Assembly: GCA_949948895.1 (NCBI GenBank)
Contig: CATLHE010000011.1
Coordinates: forward strand, 1-61,877
DNA from: an uncultured Christensenella sp.
GTDB lineage: Bacteria; Bacillota; Clostridia; Christensenellales; Pumilibacteraceae
DNA: 61,877 nucleotides
Direction: 5' to 3'
Shown: positions 31,556 to 46,313 of the stretch, in pieces
How the letters are laid out: every line of letters begins with the position of its first letter
Numbering within the stretch: the stretch's first letter is position 1
The notes under the pieces: generated by a model
What the model saw: the letters and a program-made list of their open reading frames with translations, nothing else
The model's database searches: none
Told to the model about the DNA's origin: nothing
Translations under genes and position numbers: made by a program

Positions 31556-32371
31556 TTAAATAACGTATTCCGTGTCTTTGACGTTGACGAAGCCGAGTAT
31601 GAGCGACGCAAACAGCAACGGCTTTTCGTACATGCTCGCGTGTCCGCAGTCGGGCAACACAACGTACTGCGCGCCCTTTATTTGCGAAGCGATAAAGTCC
31701 TGTTCGGGTCTCGGCAACAGCACGTCGTCCTCGCAAGCGACCACGAGCGTCGGGCAGGTTATCTTTTTGATATCCGCCGAACAGTCGTGGTAGTCGGAAC
31801 TTATGACGAGCCGTTTCATTCGCGCTTGAAAACCCCTATCGCCAAACAGCGGCGCAAGCTTTTTTTCGCGGGCGCGCATCCATTCCAAACGCTCGGAATA
31901 GAACTTCGCGCTATATATAACGGGTATCGTCGCGTCGTAGTACGCCGCGCCGTCGCCGCTCTCGCCTATGCGGTTCCAGCCCCTGCCTACGTCGCGCAAG
32001 CGGTCGCACGTTTTTGCCGTGGTGTTAAAGAGGAGCAGGCGGTCCACCCGCGACGGGTACTTGACGGCAAGCTTGAGCGCGACCTCGCCGCCGTACGATA
32101 TGCCCATGACGCTCGCGCTTTTAAGCTTTAACTCGTCCATAAGCTTTGCCACGAGCTCGACTTGAAGCGCTTGGTCGTAGTTTTCCGTCATGTCCGCGCT
32201 CTTGCCCTGATCCAAAAAATCGACGAGCACAAGCATGTTTTGCTCCGACAGCGACGGTATAAACGCTTTCCAGCTCGCCGTGCTCATCATTATGCCGTTG
32301 AGCAGTATTATCGGCTTGCCTTTGCCGTGCGTTTCGTAATATATTTGTTTGTCGTTGAATGAAAAATACAT
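31556..32371 (-). CDS. Alpha/beta hydrolase (esterase/lipase type) coupled to CoA-transferase
   Basis: The 271-aa protein is a classical alpha/beta hydrolase. It has an oxyanion-side segment LLNGIMMSTASW near 27, the nucleophile elbow GISYGGE near 93, an acid in ACEDDVLL near 215 and His in PDCGHAS near 243. The start at 32371 overlaps the CoA-transferase stop as TGATG, so the two are translated together. Substrates could be esters or thioesters linked to the transferase product. It is the last gene of the 31.5-44 kb metabolic row. A longer frame reaching 32734 runs antisense through the transferase gene and is spurious. Confidence 0.88.
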   Translation of the reverse strand: MYFSFNDKQIYYETHGKGKPIILLNGIMMSTASWKAFIPSLSEQNMLVLVDFLDQGKSADMTENYDQALQVELVAKLMDELKLKSASVMGISYGGEVALKLAVKYPSRVDRLLLFNTTAKTCDRLRDVGRGWNRIGESGDGAAYYDATIPVIYSAKFYSERLEWMRAREKKLAPLFGDRGFQARMKRLVISSDYHDCSADIKKITCPTLVVACEDDVLLPRPEQDFIASQIKGAQYVVLPDCGHASMYEKPLLFASLILGFVNVKDTEYVI

Positions 32372-33681
32372 CAGTATACTATACCAAGATCGTGCGCTTC
32401 CTTGGTCAGTTGGTCTCTGAACTTGGGATGCGCTACGGAGATTATGCGCTCGACGCGCTCTTTTATTGACGTGCCGCGAAGATTGACTACGCCGTACTCG
32501 GTAACGAGATAGTGAAGGTCGTTTCGCGAAAGCGTGACTGCCGCGCCGGGCTTGAGCTGAGTGACTATCTTGCTCGTCTCTTCCTTCTCGCCCGTCTTGG
32601 GGTTTCTTACCATTGCGGTTGAGTACAGCGCGATAAACGATCTGCCGTTCTTGCTCTTTTGCGCGCCGCACGCCGTATCCGACTGACCGCCGCTTCCCGA
32701 GAACTGCATGGAACCTATGCTCTCGCTGCAGCACTGACCGGTAACGTCCACTTCAATCGTGGTGTTTATGGATACCTGATTATCGTTTTGCGCTATGACC
32801 ATCGGGTCGTTGACGTACCCGCCGTCCATGATCTCGCACGCGGGGTTGTCGTCGAGATAGTCGTATAGTTCGCGCGTGCCCATTGCAAACGCCGCGACCA
32901 TTTTTCCTACGTTGCGCTGCTTTTTACTGCCGTTTATCACGCCCGCTTTAGCTAGCTGCGCCATGCCCGTCGTAAGCATTTCCGTATGCACGCCGAGGTT
33001 CTTTTTACCGAAGAGCGACGCCGCGACGGCATTGGGTATGCCGCCGATACCGAGCTGCAAGCAGTCGCCGTCGTTGATATACTCGGCTATGTACTTGCCG
33101 ATGATAAGGTCTTTCTCGGAAGGCGGAACGTCGGGTATCTCGGGGATATCGTAATCGGTCTCGATAAAGTAGTCCACCTCGCTCTCGTGCATTTGCACGT
33201 CGCCGAACGTTCTGGGCAGTTTGGGATTTATCTCCAATATGATATAGTCGCAGTCCGCCATGACGCGCTTTTCGTAGGTATTGGACAGCGACAGCGACAC
33301 GTATCCGTGCTTATCGGGCGGCGTGCAGTTGCCTATATAAATGTTGGTCCTGCGATGGTCGAGCCGCTTGATCGCCGCCAAGTGCAAATGATTGGGGATA
33401 AACGAAACGTTGCCGTTTTTATGCGCTTTGCGCATTGCGGGCGAATAGAACCACCCGTCAAGCGAAAAGCTCTCTTTGTACGCGGGGTTTTGGAAAAATT
33501 CGTAATCGCCCATGGGCAGGCAGTTTGTGACGTTTACGTTTTTGACTTTTTTGGCTATTTCGTGCAAGTGCGTCAAAAACTCGCGTCCCTCGGCGCAACC
33601 GAGTCCCGTCACGATATTGCAATCGGACTTGACGAGTTCCAACGCCTTTTTGACCGATATTACTTTTTTGCGGTAGTCCAT
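32371..33681 (-). CDS. Acetyl-CoA hydrolase/transferase family CoA-transferase
   Basis: The 436-aa protein is of the size and type of 4-hydroxybutyrate or butyryl-CoA:acetate CoA-transferases (AbfT/But group). It has an N-terminal GLGCAEGREFLTHL segment, then LQLGIGGIPNAVAASL near 205 and LGVHTEML near 230, whose Glu corresponds to the glutamyl-CoA-forming residue in AbfT. Near the end comes TEYGVVNLRGTS, about residue 400. It would move CoA between short-chain acids with no ATP cost. A GAGGGA site precedes the ATG. A ~400-bp gap with a structured inverted repeat separates it from the solute-binding gene upstream; donor and acceptor acids cannot be told from motifs. Confidence 0.9.
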   Translation of the reverse strand: MDYRKKVISVKKALELVKSDCNIVTGLGCAEGREFLTHLHEIAKKVKNVNVTNCLPMGDYEFFQNPAYKESFSLDGWFYSPAMRKAHKNGNVSFIPNHLHLAAIKRLDHRRTNIYIGNCTPPDKHGYVSLSLSNTYEKRVMADCDYIILEINPKLPRTFGDVQMHESEVDYFIETDYDIPEIPDVPPSEKDLIIGKYIAEYINDGDCLQLGIGGIPNAVAASLFGKKNLGVHTEMLTTGMAQLAKAGVINGSKKQRNVGKMVAAFAMGTRELYDYLDDNPACEIMDGGYVNDPMVIAQNDNQVSINTTIEVDVTGQCCSESIGSMQFSGSGGQSDTACGAQKSKNGRSFIALYSTAMVRNPKTGEKEETSKIVTQLKPGAAVTLSRNDLHYLVTEYGVVNLRGTSIKERVERIISVAHPKFRDQLTKEAHDLGIVY

Positions 33682-33695
33682 ATTATCCCTCTTTA

Positions 33696-33895
33696 TTATC
33701 GTTTTGTGTGTTGTCCGCCGAGTGCGCCTTGCTCGGCGTTTGCGGCGCTACGGGGCGGCGACCCTGGTAGAACACGCCCTAAGCGGCTCTTTTGCGCCCT
33801 GTCTGCGTTAAGCTCGCTAGTAGTAGCACCGAGGCTACGACGTCGCTCGCTTGCCTTGACATAGCTACAAAATAGCTCGCTTAGGGTACATGGTA
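33696..33895. other. Non-coding region beyond the CoA-transferase start
   Basis: GC-rich sequence with short internal repeats (CGAGTGCGCCTTGCTCGGCG near 33719; repeated AGCTCGCT). There is no convincing ORF or promoter. Together with the inverted repeat to its right it makes a ~390-bp break inside an otherwise tight gene row. Confidence 0.45.
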
Positions 33896-34004
33896 TTTTT
33901 ACGAGCAAAATCGCGAGGCTAGATGTGCAGAGCGGCGCGAAGGCGTACTCGGTAGTACATCGAGCGACGCTCCGCGCGTATAGACCGCGATTTTGCCGTA
34001 AAAA
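33896..34004. repeat. Long inverted-repeat element with nested palindromes
   Basis: Arms TTTTTACGAGCAAAATCGCG (33896-33915) and CGCGATTTTGCCGTAAAAA (33986-34004) pair over 19 bp with a single bulge. Inside are a second pair GAGCGGCGC/GCGACGCTC and a central GTACT/AGTAC. The whole ~109-bp unit can fold into one long hairpin. It is either a MITE-like insertion or a structured RNA within the operon. Confidence 0.65.
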
Positions 34005-34027
34005 CGTGTTATACAGGGGTCGCAGCC

Positions 34028-34053
34028 CCGTCCGTCGGGGTCTCCCCCGACGG
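34028..34053. other. Perfect hairpin CCGTCGGGG/CCCCGACGG
   Basis: A 9-bp GC-rich stem with a TCTC loop about 25 bp after the stop of the solute-binding lipoprotein gene. There is no T run on either strand, so it could be an mRNA 3'-end stabiliser or processing structure rather than a terminator. Confidence 0.5.
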
Positions 34054-34078
34054 TGTGTGCTTGAATAATGATTACAGT

Positions 34079-35581
34079 TTAGTCAAACGTCGTAAGCGTG
34101 TGAATTACTTTGCTCTGCGTCGCCCCAACGTATGATCCTTCGTATTCTGTTGCGTAGAGCTGATTGAGCGAGAACGCCTGAACGCCGAGACGCTGTCCGT
34201 TCTGATACGAAATGGTGTCCGCAAGCGCAATGTCTATAACCGCGCTTTCCATAGCGTCCACGTAATTGGTGCGCGTGAGCGCTTTGTCGCCGAGCATTTC
34301 CAGACCTTGGCAGAACAGATCGCCCGCGATATAGCCTGCAAGTGCAAACGCGTCGTAGCTGAGCGTAAACGGCGTGAACCCGAGCGACGCGGAAGGCAAA
34401 CCGTCGGGCACTTCCGTGCCGTAATTGAACAGGTCTTCCGCTACGCCCCAATATTCTTCGTTGAATCCGGGAACGCCGTTATCGTAAAGATTGGGCGCGC
34501 CGAGCATAGCCGCCAAAGCTTTGTAGCTATCGTACAGTCCGCCGGCGTTGCTGTATTTATAACCCGCAAGAGGGTCGTCGGTTATATCGATCCAGCCTTG
34601 CGTATGGATAGCGTTGATGATGTTCGCATACGTGTCGTCAAAGACTGCCGCGCCGTTGACATTCTTATCGAAATACGCCGTCGCCGCATTGTTGTACGAC
34701 GTAAGGATCTTTACGTTGTCCTTGGTGTAGCCCGCGTCCATGAGCGCGCTGACCGTTTTTACGTAGTCGGCGACGACTGCGATTATAACGACGTCGCAAC
34801 CCTCGTTTTTGAGCGCAGCAGCCGCTGTGCCGTAACCCGTTTCCGTATCGCTGACCTTTTGATATTTGATATTGTTCTTTTGCTCAGCGGGAAGCGTGCT
34901 CGCGCCTTTTTGAATACCTTTGAGGATATTCGCGCTCGCGTCCTCGTTATTGGAGATAACGCCGACTTTGGTAGCCGCAAGACCGCCGTCGGCGGTCGCC
35001 GCAAACGCGCGCTTGATAAGTACTCTGCCCTCGGTACTGCTTATAGGCTGTACGGGGAATATGAATCTGTCGTTGCCCGTGGCTTTGTCTTTTGCCATTA
35101 CCTCGTTGCCCGCCGCCGCGTATACCATGGGAACGCCCGCGTCTTTTATTATGTCGTTATTTACGTTTACCGCGTACGTGCCGTAGTTGCCGACTATGGC
35201 GAACACTTCGTCCTCTTCTATAAGGCGTTGAGTATACGTGACCACGTCACCGACGTTGCCGCCGTCGTCGTAGTGCTTTAACGCAACCTTGAGCCCGCTC
35301 ACGTCTTTGCCGTCGTACTTGCCGCTGAATCCGCCGCCCTTGTTGTATTTATGGAACGCCGCTTCTATTCCGTAGTTGAACGGCACGCCTATAGACGCTT
35401 GCGCGCCGGTAGTGGCCGCAGTGTTGCCGACGTAGATCGTGGTGGAAGTTACGCCTTTATACTTCATGGGATCGGTGGCTTCGTCGTCGCCGTTGCCGCA
35501 CGCCGCAAGGCAGGGCGTAATAGCCGCACAGACTGCAAGAGCCGCGATAGCGACGGTTTTGGTCTTTGTAGTTTTTTTCAT
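34079..35581 (-). CDS. LIV-type solute-binding lipoprotein (Peripla_BP_6)
   Basis: The 500-aa protein has a basic start and signal helix ending in the lipobox CLAACGNG. A type I two-lobe binding fold of the LivJ/amide-urea group follows: VGNTAATTGAQASIGVPFNYG near 50-70 has the expected N-lobe TG motif, and AIVGNYGTYAV is near 127. It delivers its ligand to the LivHM channel encoded just upstream in the operon. At 500 aa it is longer than LivJ (~370). AAGGAG lies 6 bp before the ATG. The ligand may be an amino acid, amide or short-chain acid. Confidence 0.9.
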   Translation of the reverse strand: MKKTTKTKTVAIAALAVCAAITPCLAACGNGDDEATDPMKYKGVTSTTIYVGNTAATTGAQASIGVPFNYGIEAAFHKYNKGGGFSGKYDGKDVSGLKVALKHYDDGGNVGDVVTYTQRLIEEDEVFAIVGNYGTYAVNVNNDIIKDAGVPMVYAAAGNEVMAKDKATGNDRFIFPVQPISSTEGRVLIKRAFAATADGGLAATKVGVISNNEDASANILKGIQKGASTLPAEQKNNIKYQKVSDTETGYGTAAAALKNEGCDVVIIAVVADYVKTVSALMDAGYTKDNVKILTSYNNAATAYFDKNVNGAAVFDDTYANIINAIHTQGWIDITDDPLAGYKYSNAGGLYDSYKALAAMLGAPNLYDNGVPGFNEEYWGVAEDLFNYGTEVPDGLPSASLGFTPFTLSYDAFALAGYIAGDLFCQGLEMLGDKALTRTNYVDAMESAVIDIALADTISYQNGQRLGVQAFSLNQLYATEYEGSYVGATQSKVIHTLTTFD

Positions 35582-35678
35582 GATTTACTCCTTTTGCCCT
35601 GTCGGGCTTTTGTTTGCGGTTTACGCCCGCGTGCGTTGTTTGACTTTTTTAGTTAGACGCGGTCATCGGTCTGCCGCA

Positions 35679-36566
35679 TCAATCGACGAGAAACTTTTTG
35701 ATATCTTCCGTCAGCTTATCGGGACAGTCTATCAATGGCGAGTGTCCGCAGTTCGTGTACGCAATCAGCTTGCTGTTTTTTATACCGTTTACGTTTTCCA
35801 TGACCATCCAATCGGGAACGGTGAGGTCTTTGTCCGCCATGGTCACGGCCACGGGGCACTCTATGTCTTTTACGCTCCCGTCGCCGCGCGTATATGCGGT
35901 GTTGGTATCCGACATGTTCAGCGTGGCAAGCGCCCAATCGAGATCGATAAGACACCGCTCTTTAAGCGTTTCCGCCATGTATACTTCGTTGTCTTCCGTC
36001 GTCGGCTTGTTCACCGTATAAATAACGGTGTTCCAGATATTGGTCATTGCCGCCGCGTTTTTCGTTTCGAAAATATCGAGCATGGGCTTGACCTGAACGG
36101 GGTCTGTCGCGAGTTCTTCTTTATTGGCGTAGGCTTTGCCGTAATCGCTCGTGAAATCCTTTTTCTTTTTGAATATCGGATAACCGCGATAGCTCGCGCC
36201 CTCGACCAAAAACAGCTTTTTCACTTTGTCTTTGTGATGCGCCGCAAGCATAAGCGCTACCGCGCCGCCCGCCGACCACGCGACTATATGAGTCGCGGTT
36301 TTGAGCCCTATCTTTTCCATGAACTCCGCTACGTCGTCGGCGAGATCTTTCATGCCGTCGAAACGCTCGTTATAACTGCTGTCCCCGAACCCGCGAAGAT
36401 CGAGCGCGATACAGCGGAAATCGTCTTTTAACCGCTCTATCGCGGGAAGCCAATGCACGCCGCTGCTCATATTGCCGTGGATGAACAAGACGGGCTCGCC
36501 CTTGCCCTCGTCCAAGTATGCGTACGTTTCCGATTTGAGTTTGACGGTCTTTTTGGTAAATTCCAT
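35679..36566 (-). CDS. Alpha/beta hydrolase within the liv operon
   Basis: The 295-aa protein has FIHGNMSSGVHW (oxyanion HG) near 28, DLRGFGDSS near 55, the nucleophile elbow AWSAGGAVAL near 97, Asp in MADKDLTVPDW near 235 and the catalytic His in TNCGHSPLID near 270. It is probably a cytosolic esterase, as there is no signal peptide. The second ATG (36566) has better ribosome spacing than 36569. It lies 11 bp after livF and about 100 bp before the solute-binding gene. Being embedded between transporter genes suggests that it acts on the imported compound. Confidence 0.9.
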   Translation of the reverse strand: MEFTKKTVKLKSETYAYLDEGKGEPVLFIHGNMSSGVHWLPAIERLKDDFRCIALDLRGFGDSSYNERFDGMKDLADDVAEFMEKIGLKTATHIVAWSAGGAVALMLAAHHKDKVKKLFLVEGASYRGYPIFKKKKDFTSDYGKAYANKEELATDPVQVKPMLDIFETKNAAAMTNIWNTVIYTVNKPTTEDNEVYMAETLKERCLIDLDWALATLNMSDTNTAYTRGDGSVKDIECPVAVTMADKDLTVPDWMVMENVNGIKNSKLIAYTNCGHSPLIDCPDKLTEDIKKFLVD

Positions 36567-36577
36567 CATGTGCTCCT

Positions 36578-37327
36578 TTACGACTTGTTGCCGCCGAGGT
36601 ACGCGTCTATAAGACGCTCGTTAGTGATAAGCTCCGACGCAGGACCTTGCATGCTTATCTTGCCGAGTTCCAATACGTATGCGTAATCCGCGATCTTGAG
36701 CGTTGCGAGCGCGTTTTGCTCGACTATGAGTATGGTCGTGCCTTCCGCGCGGATCTTGACCAATGCGTCGAATATATCTTTGATCAGAAGGGGCGCAAGT
36801 CCGAGCGACGGTTCGTCCAAAAGCAACACTTTGGGGCTTGCCATTAGCGCGCGACCTATCGCGAGCATTTGCTGTTCTCCGCCCGAAAGCGTATTGGACT
36901 GCTGTTTTGCGCGTTCACGCAGTCTCGGGAAAAGGTCGTAGACCATTTCGAAGTTGGCGCGCATTCTCGCTCTCGCGCTTTGCTTTATGCCGTTTTCGGT
37001 CTTGGATTTCAGCGAGTACGCGCCCGCGCGCAGGTTTTCTTCTACGGTAAGCCCGTTGAACACGAATCTGCCCTCGGGCGACTGCGTCAGCCCTTTCTTG
37101 ACTATCGCGTACGCGCGCTTGTTGATTATGTTTTCGCCGTCGAGGAGTATCTCGCCCTTGCCCTTGATAAGCCCGCTTATCGTTTTGAGCGTTGTCGTTT
37201 TACCCGCGCCGTTCGCGCCGAGCAGCGCGACAATGGTGCCCTTTTGTACGTCTACGTCTATGCCCGAAAGCGCCTGTATGGGTCCGTAATTGACTCGGAG
37301 ATTTTTTATTTGAAGTATGCCGTCCAT
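36578..37327 (-). CDS. livF: LIV-type ABC transporter ATPase LivF
   Basis: The 249-aa protein is a compact LivF: Walker A GANGAGKTT near 36, signature LSGGEQQMLAIGRAL near 138-152, Walker B VLLLDEPSLGL near 158, and the short C-terminus ending IDAYLGGNKS. It pairs with LivG to drive LivHM. ATG at 37327 overlaps the livG stop as TGATG, showing coupled translation. It has no insertion or tail, which contrasts with its partner. Confidence 0.95.
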   Translation of the reverse strand: MDGILQIKNLRVNYGPIQALSGIDVDVQKGTIVALLGANGAGKTTTLKTISGLIKGKGEILLDGENIINKRAYAIVKKGLTQSPEGRFVFNGLTVEENLRAGAYSLKSKTENGIKQSARARMRANFEMVYDLFPRLRERAKQQSNTLSGGEQQMLAIGRALMASPKVLLLDEPSLGLAPLLIKDIFDALVKIRAEGTTILIVEQNALATLKIADYAYVLELGKISMQGPASELITNERLIDAYLGGNKS

Positions 37328-38970
37328 CACTCGCCCTCCTTAGTCTTTTTCGCGCGTTTTGCCGCCGCGGGCTTTTTAGGCGCGACAGTTTTCTTCGGGC
37401 TTTCCGCATTTTTATCGGCTTTCTCGGTCGGCTCTTCTACGCTCGCCGCGTCCGCTTTTTCTTCCGTCGCATCGTGTTCTTCGCCACTCGTCGCGTCGGG
37501 CTGTTCTTCCGCCGCGTCCGTTTTTTCTTCCGCCGCGGGCTCGTCTTGATCGTCGCTCACGCCGAGGTACGCTTCCTGCACCGCTTTATCGCTCTGCACT
37601 TCGCGCGGCGTACCGATAGCGAGCGTCTTGCCGAACGAGATGGCGAGGATTCTGTCGCATATGGACATTACGAGCGACATGTCGTGTTCTACGAGGAAGA
37701 CCGCGCAACCGAACTCGTCGCGGATCTTTACTATGGTGTCGGCGAGCGCCGCGGTCTCGGTATTGTTGAGACCCGCCGCCGGCTCGTCCAAGATTATGAG
37801 TTTGGGGTTTGCCATGAGCGCGCGGGCTATTTCCACTTTTTTGAGTATTCCGTACGGAAGCCCCATAGCCGGCCACGCCGCGTAGTTTTCCAAACCCATG
37901 AATTTGAGAATACCCATCGCCTTGGACTTTAATATATCGTCCTCGCGACGCACCGTCGGAATGCCGAGCGCCTGCACGAACATGCCCGATCTGTAATTTC
38001 TGGTGCATGCGACCAACAGGTTTTCGAGTACCGATATCTCTCTCACGAGCTCCACGTTTTGGAACGTTCTGGAAATGCCTTCGAGTATTACGTCGTGGAC
38101 TTTGAACCGCCTGAGATCGATCGCTTCGCCGTCCTTGTTGCGGAAATACATGTTTCCGCCCGTCGCGTTGTAAAAGCGCGTTATGCAGTTGAATACCGTC
38201 GTTTTGCCCGCGCCGTTCGGTCCGATGAGCCCGAATATCTCGCCCGCTTTTACGTCGAACGTGAGGTCGTCTACGGCTTTGAGCCCGCCGAAGTACATTT
38301 TGAGATTTTCCACGCGCAAGAGCACGTCGTCGGGAAGCTCTATATCCGATTTGACTTTCGCCCTCAGTTCTTTTTCTTTGGCTTCGTACTTTTCGCGCTT
38401 ACTGCGCAATTTTGCGGTGCGACGCTCGACGTATTCCGCGCCGCGTTTTTCGGTCTCCGCTTTGTACTCGTCAAACTCTTTCTCGCACGCTTCCTTTAAC
38501 GCCTGGTATTCGGCGTCGTCGGAAGCGGGGTTCTGCTCCAAAAACTTTTTCTTTTGTTCTTCGAGCTTGGCTATATATTCGACGCGTTTGCCGTCGAGCG
38601 CCGCCGTCTTTTGCGCGAGCGCGTCGAGCGCGGCGTCATGATCCTCGCCGTTCTTTTGCGCTTTGAACACCGCTTTTGCCGCCGAATGATACGCCGCGCG
38701 GTACGACATGAAATGCCGCACGTCATAGCGACGCAGTTTGTCGCTTAAAAGTTCGTCTATATATTCTTCTTTGTCGCACGCCTTGAACGCCGAGGCTTTC
38801 AGGCGGTTGTTCAAGCTTTTTTGCTTGGCGGAAAGACGCGACGCCGTTTTGCGCTCCTGCATGACGGGCAGTTCCGATAGCTCGGTATCCGTCCACTCGC
38901 GGGACTGCCGCGCTTTCAGCAATCGTGTCTCTATAAGGCGTGCGGTCAGTTTATCAAATATCTTTGCCAT
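37327..38970 (-). CDS. livG: LIV-type ABC transporter ATPase LivG with N-terminal helical domain and C-terminal tail
   Basis: The 547-aa protein is twice the usual size. Residues 1-215 are a highly charged, coiled-coil-like Lys/Glu/Ala region. The LivG core follows: Walker A GPNGAGKT (250-257), Q-loop FQN (303-305), Walker B LIILDE (391-396) and H-loop VEHD (427-430). The signature is LPYGILKKVEIARA (371-384), where LivG usually has LSYGQQR, so the usual Ser and Gln are changed. After 472 comes an acidic Glu/Asp/Ala tail ending in a Lys/Pro/Ala cluster. AAGGAG precedes the ATG, and the start overlaps the livM end by 17 bp. Confidence 0.93.
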   Translation of the reverse strand: MAKIFDKLTARLIETRLLKARQSREWTDTELSELPVMQERKTASRLSAKQKSLNNRLKASAFKACDKEEYIDELLSDKLRRYDVRHFMSYRAAYHSAAKAVFKAQKNGEDHDAALDALAQKTAALDGKRVEYIAKLEEQKKKFLEQNPASDDAEYQALKEACEKEFDEYKAETEKRGAEYVERRTAKLRSKREKYEAKEKELRAKVKSDIELPDDVLLRVENLKMYFGGLKAVDDLTFDVKAGEIFGLIGPNGAGKTTVFNCITRFYNATGGNMYFRNKDGEAIDLRRFKVHDVILEGISRTFQNVELVREISVLENLLVACTRNYRSGMFVQALGIPTVRREDDILKSKAMGILKFMGLENYAAWPAMGLPYGILKKVEIARALMANPKLIILDEPAAGLNNTETAALADTIVKIRDEFGCAVFLVEHDMSLVMSICDRILAISFGKTLAIGTPREVQSDKAVQEAYLGVSDDQDEPAAEEKTDAAEEQPDATSGEEHDATEEKADAASVEEPTEKADKNAESPKKTVAPKKPAAAKRAKKTKEGE

Positions 38971-40036
38971 ACCTGCACTCCTTGATCTTTCGTATCAGTT
39001 TTTTGATACCGTTTTTAGCCTCGCGAACGAGCTGCGCCGCGCCGCCGGGATAGAACATGACAACGAGTATCACGAGTATTCCCGAGATAAACGTTATCAC
39101 TACCGGATTGTCCACAAAGAATTGGACGCGGCTCAATAGCACCGTCTGCAAGCCGTACATTATAAACGTTCCGAACACCGCGCCCCATACCGATCGGTAC
39201 CCGCCGATAATGACGGCGGCGAGGATATTGAGCGACGTTATGAGCGCATAGAACCCTGCGCTGTTGGACGCTTGCGCCGCGCGAATGACTATCATCAGCA
39301 TTATGCCGGTAAGCGACGCGTAGACCGTGCAAATTATAAACGCGGTCAAACGGTATTTCATGAGGCTCACGCCCATTGCCTGCGCCGCGGACGTGCTGTT
39401 TTTCATGGCGAGCATCGCCCGTCCCGTCGGACTGTTTATTATGTTTTGCGTTATTATCATGACGATGACGAGCGCCACCGTTACGATGAATATGCCCGAG
39501 CTGCGCTGTACGGAGTTACCGAACAGGTAGAACTTGGAACTGATTATAGTGTCCTGCAAAACCACGAACAGGTTGCGCAGTATCTCGGACAGTCCGAGCG
39601 TGAGTATGCAAAGGTATATGCCCTCTATGCGGAGCGATATAAACCCGACTATCGCGCCTATTACCACCGCTATTCCCACGGCGGCGACGAGCGCGAATAT
39701 GAACGGGAGATTTGCCACCGTCATTACGTAATAAATGGAATACGTACCTATGCCTATGAACCCGCCCGTGCCGAGCGAAGCAAGCCCCGAGTAGCCCATG
39801 AGCAGGCAGAACCCGACGGACGCTATCGAATAGGCGAACGTGGTCGCGAGCCCCGTCGAAAGCGAGTACGGCAAGACCTTTTTTACGGACAGGTTGCCGA
39901 TGATGAGCATGATTATCCCGAAGATGATAAAGTAGTACATCGGGTTTTTGATCACGCGTTTCAAGCCGAGCGTCAGTCGGCTTGGCGCGAGCGGGCTTTT
40001 GTTCAAGCCGTAATTTTTAAGCAAATACCCTTTCAT
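38954..40036 (-). CDS. livM: LIV-type ABC transporter permease LivM
   Basis: The 360-aa permease has a ~30-residue cytoplasmic lead and then about nine hydrophobic segments. The family LivM region reads GYSGLASLGTGGFIGIGTYS near 77-96, the usual GxxSLGxxxFxGxGAY motif. The ATP-coupling loop lies around GRAMLAMKNSTSAAQAMGVS near 210-229. ATG at 40036 follows the livH stop directly (TAGcATG) with AAGGTG upstream, preferred over the longer frame. It forms the channel with LivH. Confidence 0.93.
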   Translation of the reverse strand: MKGYLLKNYGLNKSPLAPSRLTLGLKRVIKNPMYYFIIFGIIMLIIGNLSVKKVLPYSLSTGLATTFAYSIASVGFCLLMGYSGLASLGTGGFIGIGTYSIYYVMTVANLPFIFALVAAVGIAVVIGAIVGFISLRIEGIYLCILTLGLSEILRNLFVVLQDTIISSKFYLFGNSVQRSSGIFIVTVALVIVMIITQNIINSPTGRAMLAMKNSTSAAQAMGVSLMKYRLTAFIICTVYASLTGIMLMIVIRAAQASNSAGFYALITSLNILAAVIIGGYRSVWGAVFGTFIMYGLQTVLLSRVQFFVDNPVVITFISGILVILVVMFYPGGAAQLVREAKNGIKKLIRKIKECRYGKDI

Positions 40037-40037
40037 G

Positions 40038-40949
40038 CTACACCTTCTTGACCGTGCGCTTGCCAAACAAGCCTTGCGGCTTGAAGAATATGGCTATAAG
40101 CGACAGTGCGTAAACGATGACCATTGCCCAGCCCGACAGCGACGGTATGCCTACCGTATTGCCGAACCAGGTAATTAGACTGCTTGCGAGCGGAATAAGT
40201 ATAGCCGCGACGACGGGACCGTAAAAAGTTGCGAACCCACCGAGTATTCCAGCAAGAAAGGCGTTGACTTGGTAATTGGTCATTATATATACATGGCTTA
40301 TCTCGGTGGAGTTGGAAGCCGCCATTGCCGCGGCAAACGCGCCGAGCGCGCCCGCAAGCCCCCACGAGATCGCAGTCACGATGTGGGTGTTTATGCCTAC
40401 CATTTCCGCGACGTATTCGTTGGACGCCGTCGCGCGGACGGAAAGTCCCCACTTACTGTACCTTAACAATACGAATATCAAAACGACTATCGCGATCGTT
40501 ATGCCGAGACATACGAGCGCATTGTTGGTAACGGTGACTTGCTCGCCGCCCACCGTAAACGACTGATTGCCCTCGACAAACTTGCCGAACTTGGGCGTTT
40601 GCGCGCCGAATATGAGCGGCGTCGCGCCGACGATTATGGATATCAATCCCATCGTTATTATCTGTTTTCCCAAGCCGTTCACGTACCTGCCGCGGCGGAA
40701 TATCACCACGTCCACGAATATCGCTATCGCCATGGCGGCGACCGCGCCTATGGGCACGGCGAGCCAAATAGACAGCCCCGCGGAGTTGAGACACTTTGCC
40801 GCAACGTACGCGCCGAATGCCGAAATAACGCCCTGCGCGAAGTTGGTCGTGTAAGACGTTTTGAATATCACGGTGATGGCAAGCGTTACTATCACCGTGA
40901 TACATATCGGCAATATGACGATAAATAAATTGTTAAGGAAATACGCCAT
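40038..40949 (-). CDS. livH: LIV-type ABC transporter permease LivH
   Basis: The 303-aa protein has about eight membrane segments and the LivH-type motif NFAQGVISAFGAYVA near 36-50. Its coupling loop is KWGLSVRATASNEYVAEMVGI near 165-185. It is the first transporter gene after the biosynthetic-type enzymes; 6 bp separate it from the KAS III-like gene, so the enzymes and the importer are one transcript. A degenerate GGGGAT ribosome site lies upstream. Confidence 0.94.
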   Translation of the reverse strand: MAYFLNNLFIVILPICITVIVTLAITVIFKTSYTTNFAQGVISAFGAYVAAKCLNSAGLSIWLAVPIGAVAAMAIAIFVDVVIFRRGRYVNGLGKQIITMGLISIIVGATPLIFGAQTPKFGKFVEGNQSFTVGGEQVTVTNNALVCLGITIAIVVLIFVLLRYSKWGLSVRATASNEYVAEMVGINTHIVTAISWGLAGALGAFAAAMAASNSTEISHVYIMTNYQVNAFLAGILGGFATFYGPVVAAILIPLASSLITWFGNTVGIPSLSGWAMVIVYALSLIAIFFKPQGLFGKRTVKKV

Positions 40950-40955
40950 ATACTT

Positions 40956-41975
40956 TTATCCCCATTTGATAATGTTAGCCGACCATACGTATCCGATACC
41001 GGCAGCTACCATGCTGACGACCGAACCGTCTTTTACCTTGCCGGACTTTAACGCAAGCTCCAACGAAAGTATTTGGTCGCACTGACCGACGTGACCGTAA
41101 TCCTCCAAATATATAGACTGTTCTTCCGTAAGTCCGAGATCTTTCAACATTCCCAAGTGTCCGCTGCGCTTCATGTGCAGTATGGACAGATAATCGATGT
41201 CCGCGCGCGTCATTTTCGCCTGAGCGAGACTGTCGTCTATGCACTTGTACCAATTGGGAACGCTGACCTCGTTGAGGCGGTTCTTCATTTTGACGGGATC
41301 GAGAAGACGAAGGCTCTTGTACCCTTCCTGTATATTGTCGGGCGTAAACGGATGCGCTATACCGCCGATCTCGACGCCCGCAGTCCTAGCAATGGAGCCG
41401 TCGCTTATTATCTTGCTGCCGAGAAGCAGGTTTTTGCCGTAGTTCTTTTTGAGTATGATAGCCGCGCCGCCCGCCGAAAGGTTGTACATCATGGACATAT
41501 TTTTATCGGTATAGTCCACGAAATCGCCGTTTCGGTAGCCGCCGCAGATCATGACGGTGTCTATGCTGTCGTCGGCTACGAGCATGTCGCGCGCGATCTT
41601 CATTGCCGATACGCACGTGCAGCAGCGGTTTTGAACGTCTATGCCCCAAGCGTTGACCGCGCCTATGGCGTCCTGTATGTAGCACGCGGAAGTGGTGAGC
41701 GGATACTCCTTCCACTCCTCGCCCATGCACAGTATAACGTCTATATCCTTGGGATCGACGCCCGTATTTTTGAGACAGTTCTTAGCGGCTTTGACGCCCA
41801 TTTCCTGAGTGCCGTCGCCGTCGCCGGGCAAGAATTTCTTTTTTATGCCGAGTTTTTGAACGACGGCGTCTTCAGTCCATACGCCCTTGGTCGCGTCGCT
41901 TATTTCCTTTGCGGTCATGATGCGCTCGGGAAGATACGTGCCTACGCCTACGATACCTACATTGATTTTCGACAT
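40956..41975 (-). CDS. KAS III/thiolase-like condensing enzyme with altered triad
   Basis: The 339-aa protein has FabH-type length and order. The nucleophile region is DVQNRCCTCVSAM, with C118 aligning to FabH Cys112, and the His region is ILHMKRSGH (H267). At the position of the FabH Asn in YGNTS it reads YGHVGQCD, giving H295 instead of Asn. The last strand motif SMVAAGIGYVW matches FabH. The HQAN loop is also lost. So it may be not a fatty-acid initiator but an acyltransferase or acyl-CoA condensing enzyme. AAGGAG lies 6 bp before the ATG; fabG-like and livH genes flank it closely. Confidence 0.82.
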   Translation of the reverse strand: MSKINVGIVGVGTYLPERIMTAKEISDATKGVWTEDAVVQKLGIKKKFLPGDGDGTQEMGVKAAKNCLKNTGVDPKDIDVILCMGEEWKEYPLTTSACYIQDAIGAVNAWGIDVQNRCCTCVSAMKIARDMLVADDSIDTVMICGGYRNGDFVDYTDKNMSMMYNLSAGGAAIILKKNYGKNLLLGSKIISDGSIARTAGVEIGGIAHPFTPDNIQEGYKSLRLLDPVKMKNRLNEVSVPNWYKCIDDSLAQAKMTRADIDYLSILHMKRSGHLGMLKDLGLTEEQSIYLEDYGHVGQCDQILSLELALKSGKVKDGSVVSMVAAGIGYVWSANIIKWG

Positions 41976-41992
41976 AACGGTCTCCTTATTTA

Positions 41993-42712
41993 TCAGAGTC
42001 TCATTCCGCCGTTGACGGCTATGGTCTGACCTGTCACGTAACTGGCGTCGTCACTCGCAAGGAACAGCGCGGCTTTGGCTATCTCTTCGGGCTGACCGAG
42101 CCTGCCGAGCATCGTCTGCTTGGCGAACTTCTCGAGAAGCTCGGGCGGAACGGTCTTCATCATGTCGGTCATGATGTATCCCGGCGCTATCGCGTTGACG
42201 CGAACGGGCACGCCCTTTCTCGCAAACTCTTTCGCCCAGGTCATTGTAAGTCCGATAACGCCCGCTTTGGTAGCGGCGTAGTTGGCTTGACCTATATTTC
42301 CGAACTGACCCACGACCGACGAGATATTGATTATACTGCCGCCGCCGATCTCTTCCATGTGCGGACCGATATGGCGCGTAAGATTGAACACGCCCGTGAG
42401 GTTGACGGAAATGACCGCGTTCCACATATCGTCGGTCATCTTGCGCGTCATAGCGTCGCGCGTGATACCCGCGTTGTTTACGAGGATATCGATCTTTCCG
42501 TACTTTTCGATCACTTTATCGCAAAACGCCTTGCACGCCGCGCTGTCCGACACGTTGAGCTGGAAATACTCTACGTTGGGATTTTCGTACGTGAGCGGCA
42601 TCATGTCCACCGCTATCACCTTTGCGCCGTTTGCGGCAAACAGCATAGCCATTTCTCCGCCCAAGCCTTTTGCTCCGCCCGTGACTACCGCCACTTTGTT
42701 TTTAAGTCTCAT
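41993..42712 (-). CDS. 3-oxoacyl-ACP / acetoacetyl-CoA reductase, SDR family
   Basis: The 239-aa protein is a short-chain dehydrogenase of FabG/PhaB type. The cofactor loop is TGGAKGLGGEM near 10-20, NNAGITRD near 83, catalytic Ser in NISSVVGQFG near 133-141, and YAATK near 149-153 supplies Tyr and Lys. It reduces 3-ketoacyl thioesters to (R)-3-hydroxyacyl forms. Next to a thiolase, an acetoacetyl-CoA reductase role (PhaB-like) is as likely as fatty acid synthesis; no fabD, acpP or fabF is present. The second ATG (42712) is chosen for spacing from AAGGAG. The gap to the next gene is 17 bp. Confidence 0.9.
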   Translation of the reverse strand: MRLKNKVAVVTGGAKGLGGEMAMLFAANGAKVIAVDMMPLTYENPNVEYFQLNVSDSAACKAFCDKVIEKYGKIDILVNNAGITRDAMTRKMTDDMWNAVISVNLTGVFNLTRHIGPHMEEIGGGSIINISSVVGQFGNIGQANYAATKAGVIGLTMTWAKEFARKGVPVRVNAIAPGYIMTDMMKTVPPELLEKFAKQTMLGRLGQPEEIAKAALFLASDDASYVTGQTIAVNGGMRL

Positions 42713-42819
42713 CATTGCTCCTTATTTTGTCGGCATCGGTTTCTATTCCGCCCGAGGCGTTACGATGCCGTTATGTTATTGTTTATCGTTTTGCCGATCT
42801 TCTTTTCGGCATAGCGTAT

Positions 42820-44022
42820 TTACGCTCTTTTGAGCACCACAGCCGTGCCCATACCGCCGCCTATGCAGAGCGACGCGAGCCCGAGTTTTTTATCGCTTCT
42901 TATCATCTCGTGAACGAGACTGACTATAATGCGGTTGCCGCTCGCCCCGACGGGATGACCGAGCGCTATCGCGCCGCCGTTTACGTTGGTCTTGTCCAAA
43001 ATGGCTTTTTTATCGACCTTGTAAAATTCGGAAAGCTCGCGCACAACGCCGAGCGACTGCGCGGCGAACGCCTCGTTGAGCTCCAATACGTCCATATCGG
43101 AAAGCGTGACGCCCGCGTTTTTGAGCGCATTTTTAATGGCGGGAACGGGACCGAGACCCATGACTTGCGGATCGACGCCGCCCTGCCCCACTCCGACGAG
43201 TTCCGCCAAGGGTTTGAGTTTGTACTTTTTGACCGCCGCTTCGCTGACGATCATCACAAAGCTCGCGCCGTCGTTTATGCCCGACGCATTGCCCGCCGTG
43301 ACCGTGCCCTCTTTCTTGAACGCCGTCCTAAGTCCCGCGAGTTTTTCGGGATTGGTCGCGCGATTGGGGTACTCGTCGCGAGAGAATACCGTATCGCCCT
43401 TTTTACCTTTTATAGTAATTGGAACTATCTCATCGTCGAACACTCCGCCGTCGACCGCTTTTATCGCTTTGTTCTGCGATTCCATCGCAAAAGCGTCCTG
43501 CTCTTCGCGGGTGATGCCGTACTTTTCGGATATGTTTTCGGCGGTGATGCCCATATGCACTCCGCTGTACGCGTCGGTGAGCGAGTCGTAGATCATGTGA
43601 TCCAAAACGTTCATATTACCCATCTTGTGTCCAGACCTACTGGTAGCAGGTATGAGCATGGGCGCGCGCGACATGGATTCTATACCGCCAGCTATTATGA
43701 CGTCCGCCATGCCCGCTTTGACGGAAGCGTACGCATTGATAACGCTCTTCATGCCGCTTCCGCAAACCATGTTGAGAGAATACGCGGGAACGCTGTCGGG
43801 TATCCCCGCTTTAATAGCCACCTGCCGTCCGGGTCCCTGACCGAGGGACGCCGACAAAACGTTACCGACAACGACCTCGTCTATATCTTGGGGCGGTACC
43901 GCCGTATCGGCAAGCAAACTCTTGACGACCTCCGCTCCGAACTCGGTCGCGGGAACGTCTTTAAGCGCCCCGAGCATACTCGCGATCGCAGTGCGCTTGG
44001 CAGCCGCAATGTAAACTCTCAT
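42820..44022 (-). CDS. Acetyl-CoA C-acetyltransferase (thiolase II)
   Basis: The 400-aa thiolase has acyl-accepting C87 in NMVCGSGMKS, GGIESMSRAP near 105, the His motif GGAIALGHPVGASG near 345-358 and the second Cys motif CIGGGMGTA near 377. It joins two acetyl-CoA to acetoacetyl-CoA, or the reverse. The start at 44022 has GGAGGA 5 bp upstream; a longer frame runs into the operator and is unlikely. It is the first gene after the consensus promoter and palindrome at 44047-44107, so it heads the enzyme-transporter row. Synthetic versus degradative direction cannot be read from motifs. Confidence 0.94.
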   Translation of the reverse strand: MRVYIAAAKRTAIASMLGALKDVPATEFGAEVVKSLLADTAVPPQDIDEVVVGNVLSASLGQGPGRQVAIKAGIPDSVPAYSLNMVCGSGMKSVINAYASVKAGMADVIIAGGIESMSRAPMLIPATSRSGHKMGNMNVLDHMIYDSLTDAYSGVHMGITAENISEKYGITREEQDAFAMESQNKAIKAVDGGVFDDEIVPITIKGKKGDTVFSRDEYPNRATNPEKLAGLRTAFKKEGTVTAGNASGINDGASFVMIVSEAAVKKYKLKPLAELVGVGQGGVDPQVMGLGPVPAIKNALKNAGVTLSDMDVLELNEAFAAQSLGVVRELSEFYKVDKKAILDKTNVNGGAIALGHPVGASGNRIIVSLVHEMIRSDKKLGLASLCIGGGMGTAVVLKRA

Positions 44023-44046
44023 ATCTTCCTCCGCTATTGATTTTTC

Positions 44047-44074
44047 AAAAATATGAATGGTCATTCATATTTTT
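44047..44074. promoter_or_regulatory. FadR-like palindromic operator at the thiolase promoter
   Basis: A perfect inverted repeat has 13-bp arms: AAAAATATGAATG (44047-44059) and CATTCATATTTTT (44062-44074), with a 2-bp centre. Its core ATGAATGxxCATTCAT resembles the B. subtilis FadR (TetR-family, acyl-CoA-responsive) site. It covers about +1 to +25 of the thiolase transcript. The TetR gene at 44255 faces it. Confidence 0.8.
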
Positions 44075-44078
44075 TGCC

Positions 44079-44107
44079 ATTATAACACCGACAGAGGGCA
44101 ATGTCAA
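44079..44107 (-). promoter_or_regulatory. Perfect consensus promoter of the thiolase-liv row
   Basis: TTGACA (44102-44107), 17 bp, TATAAT (44079-44084) on minus. The predicted start, about 44072, falls in the palindrome at 44047-44074, so a bound repressor would block initiation. Confidence 0.85.
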
Positions 44108-44158
44108 TACCTATTTCAAAAGTTTTTTATTAAATTTTAAATTTATTACGGCGTTAGG

Positions 44159-44188
44159 TTGACAACCGCGGCGGTTTGGTATTAATAT
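44159..44188 (+). promoter_or_regulatory. Probable promoter of the TetR regulator
   Basis: TTGACA (44159-44164) with TAATAT (44183-44188) at 18 bp. A second -10-like TATAAT lies at 44204-44209. It diverges from the thiolase promoter about 50 bp away. Confidence 0.55.
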
Positions 44189-44254
44189 TGACGTGCATGT
44201 TTTTATAATAGATCGCCTCTTCTTACTGGTCGAAGGCAACATCGCGGAGAAAAA

Positions 44255-44893
44255 ATGGATGAGCTTGTAAAAAAACCGAAATCGAGAACGGCGCTGAAGA
44301 GCTTTAATAAGCTTGTATCGGCGGCGGAGAAAGTCATATACGAAAAAGGATACTTTAACAGCACGGTAAACGATATCGTAGCGGAAGCCGAGCTCGGCAC
44401 CGGTACTTTTTACATATACTTCGACAGCAAATACGCGATGTACGTGTACCTTTTGAGAAAATACGCGAGCGAACTCAAAATGACGCTTACTTTAAATATA
44501 AAGGATTGCAAGACTCGCCTCGATAAAGAGACGATAGGCATACGCACGTTCATACGCCATGCGATCGACAATCCGCGTTGCTATAACCTTATATGGGAAT
44601 CGCTGTACGTCGACCGCAACCTGTTCTTCGATTATTACAGATCTTTCGCAGACGGTTACGTTCGCGGACTCGCCCGCGCTCAGGACGAGATCGACCCCGC
44701 GCTCGATCTCGAGACCGTGGCGTACTGCTTGATAGGCATATCCAACTTTGTCGGTCTGCAAGCCATAACAAGCGAAAACATATCCAACGACCGCGTCGAG
44801 CAAATGGTGGAAACCATCAGGTGCATGCTTCAAAACGGCGTATTTAAAAAACTCGACAGTCAAACCGAAACGGCAAAAGACGCCGCGCAGTAA
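44255..44893 (+). CDS. TetR/AcrR-family regulator, FadR-like
   Basis: The 212-aa protein has a TetR helix-turn-helix at ~25-68 (KVIYEKGYFNSTVNDIVAEA, then ELGTGTFYIYFDSKY). An all-helical C-terminal ligand domain follows, with a NPRCYNLIWESLYVDRNLFFDYY segment near 110-132. A GGAG site lies 8 bp before the ATG. It is divergent from the thiolase-liv row, whose promoter carries a FadR-like palindrome. It is therefore most likely the local repressor, relieved by an acyl-CoA; this is inference from layout and operator, not from ligand residues. Confidence 0.88.
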   Translation: MDELVKKPKSRTALKSFNKLVSAAEKVIYEKGYFNSTVNDIVAEAELGTGTFYIYFDSKYAMYVYLLRKYASELKMTLTLNIKDCKTRLDKETIGIRTFIRHAIDNPRCYNLIWESLYVDRNLFFDYYRSFADGYVRGLARAQDEIDPALDLETVAYCLIGISNFVGLQAITSENISNDRVEQMVETIRCMLQNGVFKKLDSQTETAKDAAQ

Positions 44894-45216: not shown

Positions 45217-45245
45217 TTGACATTGGGTATTAAATGGCGTATAAT
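45217..45245 (+). promoter_or_regulatory. Perfect consensus promoter with no protein gene downstream
   Basis: TTGACA (45217-45222), 17 bp, TATAAT (45240-45245). Transcription would start near 45252 and meet a strong terminator about 100 nt later. Confidence 0.8.
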
Positions 45246-45251
45246 ATAAGA

Positions 45252-45358
45252 AATAAAAGTGTGACAGCAGAAATTTACCGCTTAGCTGCTAAGGAATGGA
45301 AGGGATGCGGGCTTCCCACACTTTACAAAAAGCACTGTCATATTGACGGTGCTTTTTT
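45252..45358 (+). ncRNA. Candidate structured small RNA
   Basis: Between a perfect promoter and a strong terminator lies ~107 nt with a three-way-junction design. The closing stem is AAAGTGTG (45256-45263) with CACACTTT (45317-45324). The first arm is AGCAG/CTGCT (45266-45270 and 45286-45290), the second is GGAAG/CTTCC (45298-45302 and 45312-45316), and the terminator hairpin follows. No ORF fits. I do not recognise it as a known riboswitch or sRNA. Its terminator is antisense to the end of the phage nuclease gene. Confidence 0.5.
45330..45358. terminator. Strong bidirectional terminator
   Basis: AAGCACTGTCA and TGACGGTGCTT pair (one G-U) around a TAT loop, with seven T residues on plus and an A run giving TTTTT on minus. 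The minus-strand nuclease gene ends inside the stem. Confidence 0.8.
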
Positions 45359-45880
45359 TCGTGTTTTATAAGCAGTTAGCAAATATGTAATTTTATTTCC
45401 GTGGTATTCAGGAGCAATAACAGCCATTTTTCCATTGTACCAATATTCATAGTTTCCTTTATCATTTACTTTAACGAATACACCTTTCTCAATAGTATCT
45501 GAAATTTCTTTTACATAGTTTTCGCCGTCAATTCCTTGAGCGTCTCTCTGCATAATTATGTGTTGTATTCCTAAAGAATTATCGCCACACAATAAATCTA
45601 TATCGCCTATATCATCACGATGGAATGCGCCTTTAACATGCCCGCGCCGTTCTTTCAAAAGCTTATTGACAGCGTCTTGCCCAGTGTAGCCTTTAAACTC
45701 ATCGCCGAGTAGCTCGTCAAGCTCAGCGCGACTGCCGTATGCCTCTGTCTGCTTTCCCCATGCCTTTTGCGGAATAGTCGCCGCTACTTTCCTTGCGCTC
45801 GGCAGACTGCTTACCTCGCCGTTGCCGTCGGTGAATTTCCCGTCGTCGTCGCGCGGGTGGTCTTCTTCTTTAAATGCCAT
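45338..45880 (-). CDS. Phage-type BECR-fold nuclease-like protein (PBECR family)
   Basis: The 180-aa protein begins MAFKEEDHPRDDDGKFTDG, a lead common in phage head and MuF-type polyvalent proteins. It ends in a domain with HRDDIGDIDLLCGDNSLGIQHIIMQRD, VKEISDTIEKG and VIAPEYHGNKITYLLTAYK, the layout of the phage Barnase-EndoU-ColicinE5/RelE-like (PBECR) nucleases. These are toxin-type RNases carried by phages. AAAGGAG lies 7 bp before ATG 45880. The protein may be only a fragment of a larger virion protein, as it lacks a MuF domain. Adjacent fragments show prophage decay. Confidence 0.6.
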   Translation of the reverse strand: MAFKEEDHPRDDDGKFTDGNGEVSSLPSARKVAATIPQKAWGKQTEAYGSRAELDELLGDEFKGYTGQDAVNKLLKERRGHVKGAFHRDDIGDIDLLCGDNSLGIQHIIMQRDAQGIDGENYVKEISDTIEKGVFVKVNDKGNYEYWYNGKMAVIAPEYHGNKITYLLTAYKTRKKAPSI

Positions 45881-45945
45881 GATAACTCCTTTAATGGTAC
45901 GGGGTTTGCTATCGCGCAAGCCCCGATAAAAGCGGTGTTTGAATA

Positions 45946-46134
45946 CTATTCGGTTTTGCCGTCGGTCGAAGCCGTAGACTTCGGCGCTTTTGCCGCCGTT
46001 CTTGCCGCGGGCGCGGTAAGTGCTTGGGTAAGCGTCTTGGTCGCAAGCGCAGTGTCTGCCGCCGTTATGTTCAGCGTCGCCGCGGTATAGTCGGGCGCGG
46101 TTGTTTGCACCGTTGCAGCTTCCGATTCATGCAT
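45946..46134 (-). pseudogene. Short Ala/Thr-rich phage-like fragment
   Basis: A 62-codon frame rich in Ala and Thr (TALATKTLTQALTAPAARTA) runs upstream of the nuclease gene in the same direction. It lacks a recognisable ribosome site and could be the tail of a virion gene whose front is gone. It is listed because its composition differs from a random antisense frame, but support is weak. Confidence 0.3.
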
Positions 46135-46194
46135 ACGATGTGAGAAGATATATAGCAAATCGACAAATAAAGCGATGAGAAGATAGGAAAACAG

Positions 46195-46223
46195 TTGACA
46201 AATACGATAATCGATAGTATAAT
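46195..46223 (+). promoter_or_regulatory. Perfect consensus promoter of the initiator tRNA
   Basis: TTGACA (46195-46200), 17 bp, TATAAT (46218-46223), 12 bp before the mature tRNA 5' end. Confidence 0.85.
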
Positions 46224-46235
46224 ATTAAAGAATGA

Positions 46236-46292
<57 letters not shown>

Positions 46293-46313
<21 letters not shown>

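Follow-up and report, generated by a model that had tools for sequence, protein, structure and literature searches.

In Clostridium homopropionicum, the reaction that dismutates 3-hydroxybutyrate to C2 and C4 compounds is stated to be central (PMC4591306), and Ilyobacter polytropus is reported to use only the 3-hydroxybutyrate monomer and not the polymer (PMC3035301); for neither organism do the passages covered describe a 3-hydroxybutyrate gene cluster. Here we analyze a 61,877-nucleotide stretch of DNA from an uncultured Christensenella sp. (contig CATLHE010000011.1; the whole stretch is called the window), in which eleven minus-strand genes for a thiolase, a short-chain dehydrogenase/reductase (SDR), a beta-ketoacyl-ACP synthase III (KAS III)-like enzyme, a LIV-type importer, two hydrolases and a CoA-transferase lie next to a divergent TetR gene. 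We call the KAS III-like enzyme of this locus KAS3, give loci L numbers and genomes G numbers, and refer to the source assembly as the own genome. With a probability of roughly one half, we read this locus as a system of anaerobes that would carry out TetR-controlled import of (R)-3-hydroxybutyrate or its short oligo-esters and their dismutation to acetate and butyrate. We regard uptake and fermentation of 3-hydroxybutyrate or its oligo-esters as the best reading. The gene set favors it, as do the match to depolymerases, the reductive operon that co-occurs with the cluster, the operator and, in C. homopropionicum, a core of KAS3, CoA-transferase and MaoC.

Enzymes and importer of the locus

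Using open reading frames (ORFs) and Pfam/NCBIfam profiles, we found that all eleven genes and the divergent TetR gene at 31556–44893 are present and intact, with the families that a first-pass annotation had named from the sequence alone; what that annotation missed is a second operon elsewhere in the genome and the depolymerase identity of hydrolase 1. Hydrolase 1 scores 314.8 bits against NF050089, the NCBIfam equivalog for intracellular short-chain polyhydroxyalkanoate (PHA) depolymerases, and so passes its cut-off of 300. The solved structures nearest to it are the poly(3-hydroxybutyrate) (PHB) depolymerases 8ynv and 8ynw (217 bits; the next esterase scores 63 bits), and it aligns with 8ynv over residues 12–293 with a matching Ser99-Asp248-His276 triad that is invariant in 36 aligned hydrolase 1 homologues. 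NF050089 is matched at E ≤ 2e-89, which is about its cut-off, by 29 of these 36, the window included. From its family, hydrolase 1 is predicted to split amorphous PHB or 3-hydroxybutyrate oligomers. A longer, divergent paralogue of hydrolase 1 (352–356 residues) was also seen near an EtfA or SDR gene, on the opposite strand, in L023 (3877–4947), L028 (7921–8991) and L029 (7930–8988). Hydrolase 2 is PcaD-like, with 105 bits against the PcaD model, under its cut-off.

The SDR matches FabG and acetoacetyl-CoA reductase models, mostly under their cut-offs, and together with the thiolase fits acetoacetyl-CoA chemistry. The CoA-transferase falls within the superfamily defined by PF13336/PF02550, and TIGR03948 (butyryl-CoA:acetate) is its best NCBIfam model. 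The LIV (HAAT) importer set is complete, with two PF02653 permeases, two PF00005 ATPases and a PF13458 PBP1-type binding lipoprotein whose lipobox Cys28 is invariant in 24 aligned sequences. The binding protein has no NCBIfam match at E ≤ 0.001 and its best PDB match is weak; the substrate carried by it and LivHMGF is predicted to be a small acid or ester. LivG of the window has a charged N-terminal extension of about 205 residues and a C-terminal tail. LivG proteins of 430–530 residues are present in ORFs of 14 relatives, with similarity of the extension detectable in four, and many other relatives have an ordinary LivG of about 262–280 residues.

The own genome has one MaoC match and one acyl-CoA dehydrogenase match above the cut-offs; the two genes are neighbors on contig C21, with EtfB and then EtfA after them (L099 7146–10495). 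In L012, MaoC, acyl-CoA dehydrogenase, EtfB and EtfA lie just upstream of the thiolase; by eye, the set also adjoins the cluster in L023 and L079, and parts of it in L013, L045, L069 and L084. The C21 operon could supply the reductive half of the pathway. By family, the gene set for dismutation is then complete, with CoA activation, 3-hydroxyacyl-CoA dehydrogenase and thiolase in the window and hydratase and acyl-CoA dehydrogenase/Etf on C21. Two findings support the acetoacetyl-CoA/3-hydroxyacyl-CoA chemistry that had been proposed for the locus and make it more precise: the match to the PhaZ family, and the co-occurrence of MaoC with its acyl-CoA dehydrogenase/EtfBA neighbors.

In the route that we propose, the binding lipoprotein and LivHMGF would import 3-hydroxybutyrate monomers or oligomers, and the PhaZ-type hydrolase 1, perhaps with hydrolase 2, would cleave the esters to 3-hydroxybutyrate. 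The CoA-transferase would convert this to 3-hydroxybutyryl-CoA with CoA from acetyl-CoA or butyryl-CoA, and, as their families suggest, the SDR would form acetoacetyl-CoA and the thiolase two acetyl-CoA. The rest of the 3-hydroxybutyryl-CoA would be dehydrated by the MaoC hydratase, presumably of the (R)-type given its family, and reduced by the acyl-CoA dehydrogenase and EtfBA to butyryl-CoA, for a net yield of acetate and butyrate. TetR would repress both operons at a TGAAT-N4-ATTCA operator just downstream of the promoter, and the inducer that releases it would probably be an acyl-CoA or the imported acid.

KAS3 scores 470 bits against NF005308, the PRK06840 KAS III-like family, and passes its cut-off of 315. 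KAS3 departs from FabH in that it reaches only 116 bits against the 292-bit cut-off of TIGR00747 and lacks the Cys-His-Asn triad. Cys118 and His267 align with FabH-like proteins; however, where KAS III/FabH enzymes have the catalytic Asn, KAS3 has His295 (at least 97% of 85 rows), a conserved His within a GHxGQxD motif. Glu86 aligns at or near what we take to be the position of the catalytic Glu of hydroxymethylglutaryl-CoA (HMG-CoA) synthases. The step of KAS3, a constant member of these loci, is likely to be the transfer of an acyl group, by thiolysis or condensation, with a C4 acyl-CoA as substrate. One specific and quite improbable version is an oligo-ester thiolase, in which the Cys would attack the ester carbonyl of 3-acyloxybutyryl-CoA, free 3-hydroxybutyryl-CoA and hand the remaining acyl chain to CoA; if true, imported oligo-3-hydroxybutyrate would be shortened to 3-hydroxybutyryl-CoA with the ester energy kept. 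O-acyl transfer is carried out by KAS III folds such as CerJ, and we know of no description of the oligo-ester thiolase reaction type for this fold. The locus puts the orphan condensing-enzyme family PRK06840 into a metabolic context and so narrows the search for its reaction to a few C4 acyl-CoA substrates.

Conservation of the neighborhood and its operator

To compare neighborhoods, we used KAS3 as query and one genome per species, which gave 142 relatives; the best 80 of the 142 were used, in only 36 of these 80 loci do both flanks extend for 9.5 kb or more, and gene presence was scored as tblastn matches above fixed bit thresholds. Across the 80 loci, the importer genes are present in 63 (LivH), 59 (LivM), 60 (LivG), 55 (LivF) and 53 (binding protein), and the other genes in 67 (CoA-transferase), 55 (SDR), 52 (hydrolase 2), 40 (TetR, at least 60 bits), 37 (thiolase) and 36 (hydrolase 1). 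LivHMGF is complete in 54 loci, where LivH lies behind KAS3 on the same strand in 45, is divergent and adjacent in 6 and is elsewhere in 3. When only the 36 full-flank loci are counted, none of them lacks the CoA-transferase, and the other counts are 26 (liv genes and binding protein), 25 (hydrolase 2), 23 (SDR), 20 (TetR), 18 (hydrolase 1) and 15 (thiolase). Record titles of the KAS3 relatives name Clostridia, Tenericutes/Acholeplasmataceae, Erysipelotrichaceae, Synergistaceae and others. In L050, a gene of the acetate kinase family stands between those for the thiolase and the SDR. In L080 (Sedimentibacter hydroxybenzoicus), a LIV set that precedes KAS3-CoA-transferase-hydrolase 2 is distant from that of the window (identity 30% for LivG and 40% for LivF) and was possibly recruited independently.

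The order KAS3-LivHMGF-binding protein-CoA-transferase-hydrolase 2 is colinear in 40 of the 80 loci, and the gene arrangement is not due to chance. We also made an independent draw of 297 genomes of the order, with the own genome counted in, and four further loci from it (L100–L103) have thiolase-SDR-KAS3-LivHMGF-binding protein-CoA-transferase-hydrolase 2 in the order of the window. The first-pass annotation had proposed a single pathway and named a lack of conserved gene order in relatives as a result that would refute it; the order is conserved, and the proposal is supported. Hydrolase 1 lies between the binding protein and CoA-transferase genes in L100, as in the window, and after hydrolase 2 in L101 and L102; the stretches taken contain no hydrolase 1 in L103 and no TetR match in L102.

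Within the 297 genomes, KAS3 is found in 10 (E ≤ 1e-60). Hydrolase 1 is found in 8 (E ≤ 1e-25), which are 8 of the 10 KAS3-positive genomes and none of the 287 KAS3-negative ones (Fisher p 3e-14), and MaoC in 13 (E ≤ 1e-15), which are 9/10 KAS3-positive and 4/287 KAS3-negative genomes (Fisher p 2e-13); these p values, like that for the CoA-transferase, take no account of genome relatedness. The CoA-transferase is found in 37 (E ≤ 1e-60), all 10 KAS3-positive genomes included (Fisher p 3e-10). The KAS3-positive genome with no MaoC match (G111) is 73% complete. At the level of the genus, the distribution is patchy, with 2 of 20 genomes positive (own included; some are incomplete).

At the head of the cluster, reading along the minus strand, a promoter-like sequence at 44107–44079 (12/12 match) is followed at once by ATGAATGGTCATTCAT (44053–44068) and then by the thiolase start. 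Two further 12/12 promoter matches lie on the plus strand, at 45217 and 46195, and the scan gave 19 sites in all where 13.8 were expected. TGAATGNNCATTCA has a single site in the 1.86 Mb own genome, which is the cluster-head operator, and the ATGAAT-N4-ATTCA class has three places, one at the cluster head, one ahead of the MaoC operon (at 7058 on C21) and a third on C13. To count operators in relatives, we scored TGAAT-N4-ATTCA with at most one mismatch in testable upstream gaps. Of 26 gaps ahead of the thiolase in relatives, 25 contain the operator, compared to 1/32 before the CoA-transferase, 1/16 before the binding protein and 1/32 before KAS3. When half-sites were ranked, this one was the best of 1024 (25 gaps; the next has 11), and the 29 other arrangements of the half-site average 0.97 of 26. 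In L031 (Acholeplasma granularum), where the liv and thiolase operons are apart, the operator is present at both heads, and L079 has it where the MaoC and KAS3 operons diverge. G254 has a variant palindrome with two mismatches before MaoC. The operator distribution (25/26 thiolase heads and both heads in L031) would speak, indirectly, against unlinked expression of the enzyme and liv genes.

Layout of the locus

The thiolase start is very probably at 44022, where GGAGG lies ahead of the ATG (MRVYIAAAK), and not at 44064, an alternative that falls within the operator. LivM starts at 40036, LivF at GTG 37330 or ATG 37327, and hydrolase 2 at 32371. The gaps mostly under 110 bp and the TGATG overlaps that had been noted for the cluster hold for LivG/LivF, for the CoA-transferase stop with hydrolase 2, and for the short intergenic gaps, but not for one gap of 397 nt (33682–34078) between the binding-protein and CoA-transferase genes. 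On the minus strand of this gap, the only promoter match seen is 9/12 and lies at the gap edge (34104–34076). The gap also contains, on the minus strand, the 10-mer TACTACCGAG, which recurs upstream of the MaoC operon (L099 6868) and is perhaps a member of a small intergenic repeat family.

Features of the locus with their window coordinates
Feature	Coordinates	Strand	Remarks
TetR-family regulator	44255..44893	+	divergent at cluster head; PF00440 43.5 bits
Promoter-like TTGACA-17-TATAAT, 12/12 match	44079..44107	-	for enzyme/liv operon; directly upstream of operator
Palindromic operator TGAATGGTCATTCA (TGAAT-N4-ATTCA)	44054..44067	no strand	predicted from sequence
Thiolase (acetyl-CoA C-acyltransferase), 400 aa	42820..44022	-	PF00108/PF02803; TIGR01930 above cut-off
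SDR, 3-oxoacyl/acetoacetyl-CoA reductase-like	41993..42715	-	PF13561
KAS III-like enzyme (PRK06840 type), Cys118-His267-His295, Glu86	40956..41975	-	
LivH permease	40038..40949	-	PF02653
LivM permease	38954..40036	-	PF02653
LivG ATPase, N- and C-terminal extensions	37327..38970	-	PF00005 (residues 234-398), PF12399
LivF ATPase	36578..37330	-	PF00005
Hydrolase 1, alpha/beta hydrolase, intracellular short-chain PHA depolymerase family; Ser99, Asp248, His276	35679..36569	-	NF050089
LIV-type solute-binding lipoprotein	34079..35581	-	PF13458; lipobox Cys28
CoA-transferase, Cat1/4-hydroxybutyrate/butyrate-acetate type	32371..33681	-	PF13336/PF02550
Hydrolase 2, alpha/beta hydrolase (PcaD-like)	31556..32371	-	PF00561

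Beyond the TetR gene, a PBECR1 phage-nuclease-like ORF lies near a tRNA-Met gene (45338–46313), possibly the scar of a mobile element, and at 46931–53299 there is a 2122-residue open frame that has no match in Pfam and, by eye, a hydrophobic stretch at its N terminus.

Alternative readings and known systems

Several findings weigh against the 3-hydroxybutyrate reading. The substrates of the binding protein, the transporter and all of the enzymes are predictions from sequence. The CoA-transferase misses the TIGR03948 cut-off (309 compared to 674.8 bits) and the solved structures closest to it are 4-hydroxybutyrate CoA-transferases (3gk7, 310 bits), and 7 of the 36 hydrolase 1 homologues are below the depolymerase threshold. 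KAS3 and the CoA-transferase are the most constant gene pair of the locus, and KAS3 and hydrolase 2 are without an assigned step in a plain 3-hydroxybutyrate dismutation. Fusibacter-type loci (L066, L081) have KAS3-CoA-transferase without close homologues of the thiolase, SDR, either hydrolase or liv genes, and their neighbors are genes for arginine deiminase, ornithine carbamoyltransferase, an amino-acid-kinase-family protein and a sigma54-type activator (L066 by Pfam, L081 by clustering), a context that is left unexplained by a pure 3-hydroxybutyrate scheme. In C. homopropionicum (L051), KAS3-CoA-transferase-MaoC lies beside two CoA-transferase subunits and a TIGR00366 gene, which we take to be AtoE-like, and homologues of the liv genes, the thiolase, the SDR and hydrolase 1 are all missing from the 16.8 kb covered. 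The operator is mostly lacking before other head genes (found in 1/32 upstream gaps of KAS3 and 4/15 of SDR), and it is found near the thiolase in only two of the four independently drawn loci (L100 and L103, not L101 and L102). Before MaoC, only two (own and G142) of the nine KAS3-positive genomes with a MaoC match have it within one mismatch. By these counts, taken with the 25/26 thiolase heads, a regulon has good support where the thiolase heads the cluster, and support for the second operon comes mainly from the own genome.

The pathway in reverse is ordinary butyrate formation from acetyl-CoA, and this also weighs against the 3-hydroxybutyrate reading. The cluster could then be a butyrate-forming module, in which acetyl-CoA would be supplied from an amino or organic acid taken up by the LIV permease. 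Thiolase, reductase and CoA-transferase with MaoC-acyl-CoA dehydrogenase-EtfBA make up a complete butyrate route, and TIGR03948 is the best NCBIfam model of the CoA-transferase, though under its cut-off; however, such a module leaves unexplained hydrolase 2 and the PhaZ-family hydrolase, which at E ≤ 1e-25 is found only in KAS3-positive genomes (8/297), and in our judgment regulation and so patchy a distribution (2/20 genus genomes) suit a cluster for substrate catabolism better than one for core fermentation. We rate a butyrate module as unlikely. Rather unlikely as well, to a like degree, is a substrate other than 3-hydroxybutyrate, a small acid or an ester such as a beta-keto acid, a beta-diketone or a branched hydroxy acid, with KAS3 making or splitting a C-C bond and 3-hydroxybutyryl-CoA chemistry following downstream. 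The constancy of the CoA-transferase with KAS3 in full-flank loci (36, compared to 26 for liv and 15 for thiolase), the pairing in L080 of KAS3-CoA-transferase-hydrolase 2 with a different LIV set, and the presumed match of Glu86 to the HMG-CoA synthase Glu would all suit such a substrate, but no gene seen indicates one, and 3-hydroxybutyrate is favored by the depolymerase, by the SDR and MaoC, and by the context in C. homopropionicum.

Mobilization of an internal PHB store is very unlikely: the thiolase, the acetoacetyl-CoA reductase-like SDR and the intracellular-type depolymerase resemble a PHB cycle, but the own genome (94.5% complete) has no match to a PhaC-type synthase (TIGR01836, PF07167) and the importer belongs to the cluster. 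It is equally hard to credit that an ordinary branched-chain amino-acid importer, the common role of LIV families, lies by chance beside unrelated acyl-CoA genes, given that LivHMGF accompanies KAS3 in 54/80 loci, in 45 of them immediately behind it, and that in L031 the separate liv and thiolase operons both carry the operator.

The chemistry and each protein class of the 3-hydroxybutyrate reading are already known. In the open-licence PubMed Central (PMC) papers searched, we found no description of the composite locus, the operator or the KAS III-like member, in line with the first-pass annotation, which knew of no described system of this composition, and no gene-level account of anaerobic uptake and fermentation of 3-hydroxybutyrate or its oligomers. 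These compounds come from bioplastics, from the PHB that dead bacteria leave and possibly from the ketone bodies of hosts, and the cluster offers a testable importer, regulator, operator and enzyme set across records of Clostridia, Tenericutes/Acholeplasmataceae, Erysipelotrichaceae and Synergistaceae.

Compared to the dismutation of I. polytropus and C. homopropionicum, the predicted products, acetate and butyrate, are the same and C. homopropionicum shares the KAS3-CoA-transferase-MaoC core; in contrast, the window cluster adds a LIV importer, a PhaZ-type hydrolase, a second hydrolase and TetR. The butyrate-producing acetyl-CoA pathway is Thl-Hbd-Crt-Bcd-EtfAB. The window system would have in common with it the acetyl-CoA/butyryl-CoA chemistry and the acyl-CoA dehydrogenase/EtfBA, whereas it differs in its SDR reductase, its MaoC hydratase and its ties to an importer and ester hydrolases. 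Hydrolase 1 shares with the NF050089 depolymerases (8ynv/8ynw) its score and triad, and differs in that it is found in an import and fermentation cluster in a genome with no detected PHB synthase; because of this, its substrate is probably imported rather than drawn from a storage granule.

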